Below are positions 27,269-57,874 of a stretch of 64,000 nt of DNA, in pieces (positions within the stretch are counted from its first letter, which is position 1; each line of letters starts with the position of its first letter). Below the pieces are notes generated by a model. The model had not been told where the DNA came from, did no database searches, and was given only the letters and a program-made list of their open reading frames with translations. The position numbers and the translations under genes were made by a program. Source of the DNA: Persicimonas caeni. Lineage in GTDB: Bacteria > Myxococcota_A > Bradymonadia > Bradymonadales > Bradymonadaceae. The stretch lies in NCBI RefSeq assembly GCF_006517175.1, contig NZ_CP041186.1, positions 3,437,074-3,501,073 of the forward strand. The letters are read 5' to 3'.

Positions 27269-27712
27269 CTACCGACGACGCTTCAGCCCAAACTCCTTTT
27301 CGAGCACCTCGAGCTTACGGAAGTACTCGTCGCGCGAGAACTTCTGGTTGAGGATGTGGAACTCCTTTTTGCTCAGGCCCACGCACCCGAAGCAGAAGAC
27401 GCAGTCTGAGCAATCTTCGCTCATGATCAGATACGACGAGTTCGAGCAGTTCCGTGAATTCACGCAATAGCTGCACTCGTGACACCCGACGCAGCCTTTG
27501 CAGTGGGTGCACTCGCTGCATTGTTCACACGCGTCGCAGTAGGTGCAGTTGAAGCAATCGACGCTGTCGGTGGTGAACATGCACCCGTAGCAGCGCTGCG
27601 ATCCCTCGCATTTGTAAGAGCCTGGATTCTCTCGGTTTGCCTTGGTTTCTTTGACCAATTCGCGCAGGGCGCGCTCGAAGCCAGATTTGCTCAGCGGGAT
27701 GTCTTCGGCCAT
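27269..27712 (-). CDS. Cysteine-rich protein with 19 Cys in CxxC spacing
   Basis: 147 residues with 19 cysteines, almost all between residues 35 and 115 in a CxxC/CxxxC ladder (CYGCMFTTDSVDCFNCTYC, CEQCSECTHCKGC, CSDCVFCFGC). The N-terminus (KSGFERALRELVKETKANRE) and C-terminus (FSRDEYFRKLEVLEKEFG) are helical and Cys-free. The invariant-looking tail GLSKKEFHILNQKF suggests a real conserved family; similar proteins have been annotated misleadingly as 'CaiB/BaiF'. The Cys ladder should bind several metals or iron-sulfur clusters; no signal peptide, so cytoplasmic. Function unknown. Confidence 0.8.
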   Translation of the reverse strand: MAEDIPLSKSGFERALRELVKETKANRENPGSYKCEGSQRCYGCMFTTDSVDCFNCTYCDACEQCSECTHCKGCVGCHECSYCVNSRNCSNSSYLIMSEDCSDCVFCFGCVGLSKKEFHILNQKFSRDEYFRKLEVLEKEFGLKRRR

Positions 27713-27774: not shown

Positions 27775-27803
27775 TTGACGACACGTCGTTTCTACTGTAA
27801 TTA
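27775..27803 (+). promoter_or_regulatory. Strong sigma-70 promoter for the structured RNA
   Basis: TTGACG (27775-27780), exactly 17 bases, then TAATTA (27798-27803). It is the best sigma-70 promoter I noticed in the window. Between the boxes and overlapping the -35 lies an inverted repeat, ACGAC-AC-GTCGT (27778-27789), that could be an operator. Confidence 0.75.
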
Positions 27804-27810
27804 TCGTTTT

Positions 27811-28028
27811 TAGCTGAGGTGATTAGGGCAGTTTTCCCCCGAGCTGCTCTAGGTGTTTCTCCTCATGTAGGTCGTTCATTCTCCCCCCAAGCAATGGGCG
27901 GCCGACTTTGCATCTGCTTCCCCCCGAGTAGATGCACCTCGCGTGAGCGAGGCTTTGCAGTCACTGAGCCACCTCCCCCCGACGGTGACTGCGGGCCCCC
28001 GGCCGAAAGGTCGGGGGCTTTTTTTTGG
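27811..28028 (+). ncRNA. Putative ~218-nt small RNA with four C-rich hairpin loops
   Basis: A stand-alone unit: strong promoter, no open reading frame with a ribosome binding site, and a strong terminator. It folds into a row of stems. Stem 27825-27831/27844-27850 has loop TTTTCCCCCGAG. Stem 27871-27880/27893-27906 has loop CTCCCCCCAAGC. Stem 27910-27917/27928-27935 has loop TTCCCCCCGA. A GNRA-capped stem lies at 27937-27952. Stem 27957-27964/27985-27992 has CCTCCCCCCGAC in its loop. Last is the terminator. Four of the loops expose the same C5-C6 motif followed by GA or AA, as in the actinobacterial 6C RNA and other sRNAs that pair with G-rich Shine-Dalgarno sites. Alternative: an attenuator leader of the helicase gene at 28169. 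Confidence 0.72.
27995..28028 (+). terminator. Strong intrinsic terminator of the structured RNA
   Basis: GCCCCCGGCC-GAAA-GGTCGGGGGC followed by eight T: a 10-bp stem with one G-U pair, GNRA tetraloop and long T tract. No protein-coding gene lies upstream on this strand to account for it. Confidence 0.92.
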
Positions 28029-28168: not shown

Positions 28169-30628
28169 ATGCGCAACATCAATACACCTCAGGGCGAACT
28201 CCGCGACCTCATCAAACGCTGGCAGAAGGGCAAAGGCGTCGGCCGCCACTTCACGGCGCTGAAGCATATCCCGGCGCGGGAAGCTCAATATGCGGATTTT
28301 CCGGCCGGACTCAATGAAGCCTTGCAGCAGATGCTCCGCAGGCGCGGCATCGAGCGGCTCTGGAGCCACCAGGCCAAGGCCGTCGGTCACGCGCTCGCCG
28401 GTGAAGACGTGGTGGTGGTCACACCCACCGCGAGTGGCAAGAGCCTGTGTTATAACCTGCCGGTGCTCGATGCGATGTACCGCAACGCTAGCGCATTGTA
28501 CCTGTTTCCGACGAAGGCGCTCAGCCAAGACCAGACCGCGGAACTCAACCAACTCATTGGGGCAGCGCCGGGTGCGGCGAGCGCGTGGGAAGCGCAGGTC
28601 TACGACGGGGACACCCCGCCCGATGTGCGACGGCGGATCCGCCGCAACGGGCGGCTGGTGGTCACCAACCCCGACATGCTGCACGCCGGCATCCTGCCGC
28701 ACCACGAGAAGTGGGCGAACTTCTTTCGCAGCCTCGAGTACATCATCGTCGACGAGATTCACACCTACCGTGGCGTCTTCGGAAGCCACGTGGCCAACGT
28801 GATGCGCCGGCTCAACCGGGTATGCGCCCACTACGGCTCGAATCCGACGTTCGTGGCGACCAGCGCCACCATCTCGAACCCGCGCGAGCTCGCTACCACG
28901 CTGGCCGATCGTCCGTTCGAGCTGGTCGACGAGAACGGGGCGCCGTCGGCCGAGCGCTACGTCTGCTTTTTCAACCCACCCATCGTCGACCCGCAGCAGA
29001 TGCGCCGCCAGAGCCCGTTGACCGCCGCCGAGCGCGTGGCCAAACAGACCATCAAGGGCGGCTGCGGCACGATCGTCTTTGCCCGAAGTCGCCAGTCTGT
29101 CGAGGTCGTCGTCCACCGCCTCAAGGACCGGCTCCGACGCGAGCGGGGCAACAAGAACCTCGAAGATCGTGTGGCGAGCTACCGCGGCGGCTACCTGCCG
29201 GACCTGCGCCGATCCATCGAGCGGGGCCTTCGCGAAGGGTATCTGTTGGGCGTCATCTCGACTAACGCTCTCGAGTTGGGCATCGATATCGGCAGCTTGG
29301 ACGTGTGCATCTTGGCCGGCTATCCCGGCTCGGTCGCCTCGACCTGGCAGCAGATCGGCCGGGCAGGGCGCTCGGGCGGCGTCAGCCTGGCGGTCGTCGT
29401 CGCCGGCGATGCGCCCGTCGACCAGTTCATCATCAACCACCCCGAGTACTTTATCGGCCAGTCGCCCGAAGAGGCGCGCATCGACCCCAAAAACCTGCTC
29501 ATCGCCGTCGAGCACCTCAAATGCGCCGCCTACGAGCTCGGCTTCAAGGTCGGCGAGGGTTTCGGTGAGCTGTCGCCGACCGAGACCGAGGAGGCGCTCG
29601 AATTCTTGGAGGCCGAGACCAATATGGTCCACCGGGTCGACGGGCGCTGGAAGTGGTCCTCGCAGACCTATCCCGCCAGCGAGATCAACCTGCGCAATAT
29701 CGCCGAAGAGAATTTCGTGGTGATCGACGTCACCCACCAACAGCCCAACGTGGTCGCCGAGGTCGACTTCGAGGGCGCCCACACCGCCCTGTACCCCAAC
29801 GCGGTCTATCAGATCTCGGGCGAGCCCTACCGAGTCGAGCGCCTCGACTACGACGAGCGACGCGCCTACGTGCGCCGCAGCAACGACGGCTACTACACCA
29901 CCGCCATGCACTACGCCTCGGTGCACGTGCTCGACGTGTTCAAGGAGCGCGAGGCCGCCCCCGGGCGCATCGGCTTCGGCGAGGTGCGCGTGACCGACCG
30001 CTTCGTGGGCTACAAAAAGATCAAATTCGGCACCGGCGAGAATATCGGCTACGGCGAGATCAATCTGCCCGAGCTCGACCTGCACACGATGGCCTACTGG
30101 CTCGAGCTCCCGTGCGAGAATTTCCCCGACCTGTCCTCGGACCCGGAGCGGTGGGCTCGCGTGGTCAACGGCGCCGGCAAAGTGCTGCAGACGGCGGCGA
30201 GCCTGCGGCTGATGTGCGACCCGCGCGACCTCGACCTGTGTATCGGCTCGGTCGCCGACGATCGCTGGCTGAGCGAGGGCTTCGAGGGGCTGACCCTTCG
30301 CGACGCCGACGGCCAGACCCACTCTTTCGACGAAGACGCCGCCGCTGCCTCCTTCCACGATCACCACCACGAGATGAAGACGGGGCGTATTGGCCCGGTG
30401 TTATACGACCCGACCGTCTTTATCTACGACAAGTATCCGGGCGGCGTCGGCTTTGGCGAAGGCCTATTCGACAACCACCGCGACTTCGTCAAGATGGCCC
30501 GCGAGCTCATCGAGGACTGCAGCTGCGAGCGCGGCTGCCCCTCGTGCGTCGGCCCTCCCCACGAGAGCCGCGGCGAGATCAAGACCGCCGTGTCGCAGCT
30601 TTTGGGACGCCTGGCGTATGTGATGTGA
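28169..30628 (+). CDS. MrfA/YprA-like superfamily 2 helicase with C-terminal DUF1998 zinc site
   Basis: DEAD/DEAH-type helicase of 819 residues. Motif I is PTASGKS (about residues 89-95), Ia FPTKALSQDQ, II DEIH (with downstream TYRGVFGSHVANVMRRL), III ATSATISNP, V STNALELGIDIG and VI QQIGRAGRSG. The C-terminal third is DUF1998 with four cysteines DCSCERGCPSCVG, the zinc-binding signature of B. subtilis MrfA, a helicase needed for mitomycin C repair without UvrA. Length and order match (MrfA is about 750). The N-terminal HIPAREAQYADFP is typical of this group. A TATACA near 28105-28110 may be its -10 box. Predicted role: processing of DNA adducts or crosslinks. Confidence 0.9.
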   Translation: MRNINTPQGELRDLIKRWQKGKGVGRHFTALKHIPAREAQYADFPAGLNEALQQMLRRRGIERLWSHQAKAVGHALAGEDVVVVTPTASGKSLCYNLPVLDAMYRNASALYLFPTKALSQDQTAELNQLIGAAPGAASAWEAQVYDGDTPPDVRRRIRRNGRLVVTNPDMLHAGILPHHEKWANFFRSLEYIIVDEIHTYRGVFGSHVANVMRRLNRVCAHYGSNPTFVATSATISNPRELATTLADRPFELVDENGAPSAERYVCFFNPPIVDPQQMRRQSPLTAAERVAKQTIKGGCGTIVFARSRQSVEVVVHRLKDRLRRERGNKNLEDRVASYRGGYLPDLRRSIERGLREGYLLGVISTNALELGIDIGSLDVCILAGYPGSVASTWQQIGRAGRSGGVSLAVVVAGDAPVDQFIINHPEYFIGQSPEEARIDPKNLLIAVEHLKCAAYELGFKVGEGFGELSPTETEEALEFLEAETNMVHRVDGRWKWSSQTYPASEINLRNIAEENFVVIDVTHQQPNVVAEVDFEGAHTALYPNAVYQISGEPYRVERLDYDERRAYVRRSNDGYYTTAMHYASVHVLDVFKEREAAPGRIGFGEVRVTDRFVGYKKIKFGTGENIGYGEINLPELDLHTMAYWLELPCENFPDLSSDPERWARVVNGAGKVLQTAASLRLMCDPRDLDLCIGSVADDRWLSEGFEGLTLRDADGQTHSFDEDAAAASFHDHHHEMKTGRIGPVLYDPTVFIYDKYPGGVGFGEGLFDNHRDFVKMARELIEDCSCERGCPSCVGPPHESRGEIKTAVSQLLGRLAYVM

Positions 30629-56266: not shown

Positions 56267-57874
56267 TCACGGCGACGGCTTGAGCTCCGTGACGCTGCCA
56301 TCGGCTTGAATCGCCAAGATGGCAAACCCCGGCCCATCGGTGCCGTTGGTCTGGTCGAGATCTCCGGGGGTCAGGAACCCGGAGGCGACCAGCGTCAACG
56401 CCTCACCTTCGAAGACGCTCAGATCGACATCGACCTGGGCGAGCACCGACGACTGATCGGCTGGGGTGACTTGCAACCCGACCGGAGCCGGGTCGACCAT
56501 GAAAAACTCACTGAATTGTCCGTAGTTGAGGTCATCGACCAGCGTCTGCTTGCCGGCGGCGGTGACCACATCGATGGCCGGGGCGTCGGTCACCCCGTGA
56601 AATGCCTTGAGCTGGACCATGTCCCAGCTGTCGGAGACCTCGCGCACCACCCCGAATTTGACGTCGAAGGCGATGTCTTCGCCTCCCGGGTTGGGCTCGA
56701 ACTGGCTCGGGTCACTCACCCCCGTGGCAATGCCGGCGTAGGTCGCCCCGGCGGCCAAGGTGGGCGTGGCCACAAAGATGGCGTCTTCATCCGACGCACT
56801 GTCAGACGGCGCGATCGCCACGTCGACCGCGATGCCCGACGGGTAGCTCAACGCCGCGGTGGCCTGCCGATAGGTCAGGTCGTCTCCCACCAACTCGCCT
56901 TCGATATACACGTCGACGGTGTCGAACGCCGCATCGGGGCTGTTGTGGACGACCTGCACGCGGCCGGCCTGCATCAGCTCGATGCCCTCGCCGCCCTCGG
57001 CGGGGTAGGCCACAAGCGCGAATTCGGGGCGATCGCTGTTGTCGGTGTTCAAAAAGCCCGAGGCGGCGATGACGAACGCCTGGCCGCCGCCCAGATTGGG
57101 CGTCTGGAACGAGTCGATCCGCCGGTCCTCGCGCGCCGGGTTGGTCACATCGAGGGTGTGGATCCCGTTGGGGATATCGACGTAGTTGGAGAATTCGGCG
57201 TAGTTCAGCCCGCTCAACAGCGTGGTAGTGCGGTCGACGACGATGTCGACCGGCGGGGTGTCGGGGCTGCTGTGAAAGATCGTGGCCTGGTCGACTCCGT
57301 CGTCACTCGACTCGACGCGTGCCTCCTCGAGTAGCGTCAGGCCCAGCGAGATGTCGCCGTTGGCCGGCGTGGTCGGCGTGTTCTGCGGATCGAGCACCCC
57401 GTTGACCGCGGCGACGAATTGGCCGCCATCGTCGAGACTGATCGGCCCGAGCTCGACGATGCGGTCGTCGAAGCTGTCGCTGGTGCCCGGCGCCAGCGCG
57501 ATCGTCAGATCGGTGTCGGCAGGCACCTGCTCGAAAGCGGTGGCCGTGCGGTAGCGAAAATCGTCGATGAACAGGTTGCCGTTGACGTAGACGTCGACGA
57601 CCTGCGCCGCCGGATCGGGCGACTCGTGGATCACCTGCAGCAGGGCGCTCGGGCCGGTGAAGGCGTCCTCCTCGGCGTCGTCGTCGGCGTCCACCGGCTC
57701 GGCATCGCCCACGTCGGCGCCTGCGTCATCACCAGCGTCGCCCACGCCTACATCGGCGACTGGTTGCTCGTCGTCATCATCGTCATCACAGCCCACTGCT
57801 CCCAGCGCCAGCGCTCCGGCCAGCACCAGCGGCCACAGTCGCAGTCGCCTCGTCATCTCCCGTCGTGTACGCAT
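56267..57874 (-). CDS. Lipoprotein with four DUF4397-like repeats
   Basis: 535 residues. Start ATG preceded by GGGGGGAACG. Signal peptide with lipobox GAVGC, then a long Asp/Ala linker. Four repeats of about 110 residues open with LLQVIHESPDPAAQVVDVYV, QATIFHSSPDTPPVDIVVD, RVQVVHNSPDAAFDTVDVYI and LKAFHGVTDAPAIDVVTA, the start of DUF4397 domains, each followed by a YxEF/YRQA strand. DUF4397 is common in surface proteins, with unknown ligand. It heads the run of four co-oriented lipoprotein genes. Its G6 ribosome binding site is complementary to the C6 loops of the RNA at 27811-28028. Confidence 0.88.
   Translation of the reverse strand: MRTRREMTRRLRLWPLVLAGALALGAVGCDDDDDDEQPVADVGVGDAGDDAGADVGDAEPVDADDDAEEDAFTGPSALLQVIHESPDPAAQVVDVYVNGNLFIDDFRYRTATAFEQVPADTDLTIALAPGTSDSFDDRIVELGPISLDDGGQFVAAVNGVLDPQNTPTTPANGDISLGLTLLEEARVESSDDGVDQATIFHSSPDTPPVDIVVDRTTTLLSGLNYAEFSNYVDIPNGIHTLDVTNPAREDRRIDSFQTPNLGGGQAFVIAASGFLNTDNSDRPEFALVAYPAEGGEGIELMQAGRVQVVHNSPDAAFDTVDVYIEGELVGDDLTYRQATAALSYPSGIAVDVAIAPSDSASDEDAIFVATPTLAAGATYAGIATGVSDPSQFEPNPGGEDIAFDVKFGVVREVSDSWDMVQLKAFHGVTDAPAIDVVTAAGKQTLVDDLNYGQFSEFFMVDPAPVGLQVTPADQSSVLAQVDVDLSVFEGEALTLVASGFLTPGDLDQTNGTDGPGFAILAIQADGSVTELKPSP

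Follow-up and report, generated by a model that had tools for sequence, protein, structure and literature searches.

A candidate small RNA family with C-tract hairpin loops in Persicimonas caeni and its bradymonadal relatives

The genomes of Persicimonas caeni, a marine predator among bacteria, and of most members of its family contain a single gene for an RNA of about 200 bases whose hairpins are tipped with runs of C; these tips probably stick to G-rich mRNA start sites and so switch off translation. The P. caeni copy lies within the 64 000 nucleotide stretch of DNA analysed here (the window), and of 21 genomes at family level (Bradymonadales), 14 have homologues, normally as one copy per genome. 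A full-text literature search found no paper linking Bradymonadales with small RNAs, and a family supported by covariance gives a starting point for studying how these predators regulate genes post-transcriptionally.

The predicted transcript (approx. 215 nt; positions 27810–28026, plus strand) is delimited by a promoter and a terminator and supported by its fold and by the match to a covariance model built from relatives (R1, below). The near-consensus promoter described in the earlier note was located at 27775–27803 on the plus strand, where a sigma-70-like arrangement of TTGACG (27775–27780), a 17-nt spacer and TAATTA (27798–27803) is found; the chance expectation of promoter-like sites in the 1-kb scan is 0.3. 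Promoters could be aligned in 12 copies of the family with the consensus TTGAC[GC]-17-TAnnTT, although some −10 hexamers deviate. The sequence upstream is AT-rich, and the outer stem of the RNA begins 6–10 nt after the promoter. The diverged copy in G004 carries TTGACT-17-TAATTT. The same note's GNRA/T8 terminator was likewise confirmed, with a GAAA loop and eight T residues (27994–28026, plus strand; stem 27994–28019, T run 28019–28026), and a comparable terminator closes every complete family copy examined.

The fold of the window copy is better than those of 200 out of 200 shuffled sequences (z −5.5 for the whole RNA and −5.7 without the terminator). Its outer stem pairs a 5′ arm at 27814–27822 with a 3′ arm at 27858–27866 (both plus strand, as are all the elements that follow), corresponds to helix 1 of the family and includes two non-standard pairs in the R1 alignment. 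Within it lies hairpin 1 (27823–27852; family helices 2–3), with a C5 loop, TTTTCCCCCGAG, whose C-tract core columns are invariant in 13 of 13 copies. Just before the 3′ arm, where the family hairpin 2 is expected with its GCUCCUCCCUC loop, the window copy has a deletion, such that 5 nt stand in for 27 model positions in the R1 alignment. Family hairpins 3 (27870–27903; helix 5; loop TCTCCCCCCAAG) and 4 (27909–27936; helix 6; loop TTCCCCCCGA) follow, the former with six C columns invariant in 13 of 13 copies and the latter with changes on both sides in 10 of 11 pairs. Two further elements lie outside the family model: a small hairpin lacking a C loop (CCTCGC-GTGA-GCGAGG, 27937–27952), at the equivalent position of which the G004 copy has an unrelated small hairpin, and an extra C6 hairpin with loop CCTCCCCCCGAC (27956–27993) that occurs in the window copy only. 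All four C5/C6 hairpins reported previously are therefore present; the earlier note missed that hairpin 1 is nested in the outer stem.

Plain DNA similarity searches of relatives returned terminator look-alikes only. Reading the intergenic regions beside the gene for a Cys-rich protein across genomes of the same family revealed related RNAs in several of them. Because MAFFT alone misaligned the hairpins, a structural alignment was made by hand from seven relatives' copies, and R1 was built from six of these, with the window copy excluded; gaps were entered as N and rare insertions omitted, a choice that favours the structure. R1 matches one copy in each of 12 of 58 genomes, including the window genome and three genomes not used in R1. 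The window copy scores 40.8 bits (E = 2.3e-6 genome-wide) and is the sole match in the 8.05 Mb of its own genome; within the window the match spans 27814–27936 (E = 1.8e-8). It follows the family plan in its outer stem, hairpin 1, C-loop hairpins 3 and 4, promoter and terminator. Sequences outside the hand alignment (G009, G019, G020, G004, G015 and the window copy) also fit the structure.

A second model, R2, was run over 379 genomes sampled from the phylum, of which 21 belong to the same family: matches were confined to the same 12 genomes, and no copy was found in the 358 genomes outside the family. Searching with R2 near the neighbour gene added diverged copies in G015 (47.8 bits) and G004 (26 bits), neither of which is part of R2; a third model, R3, matches both genome-wide, but both sequences belong to it. 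Since the first genome-wide look missed these two copies, absence from the remaining seven family genomes is soft. Weak model matches were seen in G021 and G023, along with a second one in G015, and an R2 match in G007 (26.5 bits) was rejected, as it has no promoter and adjoins a ribosomal protein S4-like gene. As far as found, the RNA is restricted to one bradymonadal family.

The shared plan consists of an outer stem enclosing hairpin 1, with its C tract, and hairpin 2, followed by hairpins 3 and 4 and the terminator. The loop of hairpin 2 is GCUCCUCCCUC in most copies, and those of hairpins 3 and 4 are mostly C5–C9. In the window copy hairpin 2 is deleted, and G004 and G015 have it in changed form or not at all, so it is not a defining requirement of the family. 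Across 13 copies, changes on both sides are seen in 44 of 51 pairs (8 of 9 in the outer stem) and 95.1% of cells are paired; none of 500 shuffles was comparable, and sliding the pairing partners abolishes the signal. Although the alignment was fitted to the structure, this excess is far larger than we would expect such fitting to produce by itself. G–U pairs outnumber A–C pairs by 47 to 5, which identifies the plus-strand RNA as the strand under selection. In at least 15 loop columns, C is the only base among the sequences that are not gapped there, compared with an average identity of 66% in paired columns, so conservation in the aligned copies sits in the loops rather than in the stem sequences. 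Taken as comparative evidence, these features mark the locus as a conserved RNA gene and not a product of chance.

The earlier note had left open a new or a remote C-rich-loop sRNA, and it is the first of these that the data favour: besides the covariation, promoter, terminator and loops are conserved across 14 genomes. Neither the window nor seven relatives' loci gave any Rfam 15 match at gathering level. A remote 6C RNA (RF01066) is not borne out, with scores of 21.6 bits in the window and 20.7 in G002 against a gathering score of 47, and with a different architecture; the Rfam ar14 model scores 18.8 bits in the window against 58.8. As neither score is reached and Rfam 15 has no entry for the RNA, it represents a new family rather than a member of either.

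Among known RNAs, 6C, alpha-r14 and the staphylococcal C-rich sRNAs come closest. 6C in C. glutamicum has two hairpins in approximately 100 nt (PMC4046766), and repression of eccB4, which carries a six-G tract, by mycobacterial B11 (6C) needs the C-rich loops (PMC10470900). Both they and the bradymonadal RNA have stable stem-loops with around six exposed C residues, and 6C acts without known Hfq. C6 hairpins 3 and 4 locally resemble the two stem-loops of 6C, but they belong to a larger conserved structure of approximately 200 nt, in which two or three C hairpins come after an outer stem with a C hairpin and, in most copies, a CUCCUCCC hairpin. The loops of alpha-r14 mimic the anti-Shine-Dalgarno sequence and are conserved while the stems vary, and the CCUCCUCCC loops of NfeR1 silence ntrB (PMC10746234). 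Hairpin 2 of the bradymonadal RNA, with GCUCCUCCCUC in most copies, recalls alpha-r14, NfeR1 and cuckoo (CcsR). However, alpha-r14 and cuckoo have three CCUCCUCCC hairpins, whereas bradymonadal copies have at most one CUCCUCCC loop, the window copy none, and their remaining loops are pure C tracts. In S. aureus, RsaA represses mgrA by pairing with its Shine-Dalgarno region, and several ncRNAs contain a C-rich sequence (PMC3961350); the host is unrelated to Bradymonadales. The best reading by analogy is that the bradymonadal family works like the 6C and alpha-r14 sRNAs, with the mechanism a candidate one.

We consider it likely that this is a stand-alone, trans-acting sRNA of a new family whose C loops block G-rich start sites without Hfq. 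The RNA would be transcribed from its own sigma-70-type promoter and ended by its own terminator, and its rigid, covarying stems would display several C-tract loops together with, in most relatives, one further loop, CUCCUCCC, resembling the anti-Shine-Dalgarno end of 16S rRNA. Pairing of these loops with G-rich translation start regions would block ribosome binding with no need for Hfq. A search for Hfq (PF17209) was negative in all 19 genomes, including that of P. caeni, with 5 of 14 controls positive. Repression of translation is the outcome we favour because known C-loop sRNAs (B11 and NfeR1) act in this way. The loss of the CUCCUCCC hairpin from the window copy is counted against this reading.

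In the P. caeni genome, GGGGGGA occurs 2–11 nt before ATG at 84 sites, compared with 26 in a reversed control, an approximately threefold excess that makes possible targets available. One candidate is a lipoprotein-like gene starting near 57872 (minus strand), with the start region AAAACTGGGGGGAACGATG, for which the predicted duplexes of the G6 start site with each loop range from −16.6 to −18.6 kcal mol−1; most G6 sites would pair with the loops about as well. In Bradymonas sediminis, where the RNA was not found, enrichment of G6-ATG sites is as strong (55 versus 11 in the control). Counts of such sites do not tell genomes that have a detected RNA from those that do not, so this genome-scale comparison lends no support to masking and gives no sign of co-evolution. 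Among 18 plausible genes with G6 start sites, 10 look exported by their signal peptides, which is not significantly more than the 10 of 31 genes with other sites (p = 0.14). The excess of GGGGGGA just upstream of ATG over the reversed control extends to nearly all genomes of the family, including some in which the RNA was not found, and is a start-site preference.

A bolder and doubtful extension is that the RNA is a single-copy master regulator in predators that lack Hfq, carrying two anti-Shine-Dalgarno codes on one scaffold and matching 6C and alpha-r14 by convergence. C6 loops would then serve G-tract start sites and the CUCCUCCC loop classical Shine-Dalgarno sites, and gain or loss of hairpins would retune the mix between lineages. 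The family also offers a series of natural variants that have acquired or shed C loops. Should it act as we propose, G-tract/C-loop pairing would have an independent example in GC-rich bacteria without Hfq, which would suggest convergence on the same pairing code.

The main rival to pairing between C loops and G tracts, though an unlikely one, is that the RNA titrates or scaffolds a protein, its C-tract loops sequestering an RNA-binding protein in the manner of CsrB and CsrA. Near-identical loops on one scaffold with stems free to vary would suit a multivalent decoy equally well. However, CsrA-type decoys present GGA loops, which here would fall on the opposite strand, whereas promoter, terminator and G–U polarity all indicate the C-loop strand, and no C-tract-binding protein has been identified. 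Somewhat less probable still is a sponge that captures G-rich sRNAs or mRNA fragments instead of mRNA start sites. Invariant C loops could pair with any G tract, and the failure of G6 start sites to follow the detected presence of the RNA would fit such a role, but the host has no known G-rich sRNA partner. That the hairpins are chance, functionless products of C-rich DNA, which is common in some relatives, is effectively refuted by covariation, and the invariant loops, the conserved promoter and the generally single copy per genome leave this reading a negligible probability. A scan for three TCCCCC within approximately 110 nt found five places in the 8.05 Mb P. caeni genome, two of which are the RNA locus. 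Lujinxingia-type genomes (L068 and other contigs of G013, G016 and G018) contain many short-repeat arrays with TCCCCC units, which are unrelated to the RNA.

Gene order bears on a last alternative, that the RNA acts in cis, as a leader or attenuator, on the helicase gene downstream (28169–30628). In the window both lie on the same strand, with approximately 140 nt between the end of the RNA and the start of the helicase gene. Among relatives, however, the downstream gene varies and is mostly convergent, a point in favour of a free, trans-acting RNA, and the strong terminator at the end of every complete copy also speaks against a leader. The upstream neighbour in most copies is the divergent gene for the Cys-rich protein (27269–27712, minus strand), a 147-residue product with many CxxC motifs that is conserved in 30 of 39 relatives and has no Pfam or NCBIfam match. 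In Bradymonas sediminis (G008) only 143 nt separate this gene from the helicase gene and the gap holds no RNA, so the helicase is kept there without an adjoining RNA. Gene order therefore largely refutes the leader reading, to which we assign very little probability. The loss of C loops between conserved flanking genes, which the earlier note would have taken as evidence against a C-loop sRNA, is thus seen at this one site, but most of the family retains the RNA. A gene for a lipoprotein-like protein of approximately 750 residues also lies near the RNA, often convergent with it, in several genomes (L113, L114, L116, L118, L119, L123 and L124).
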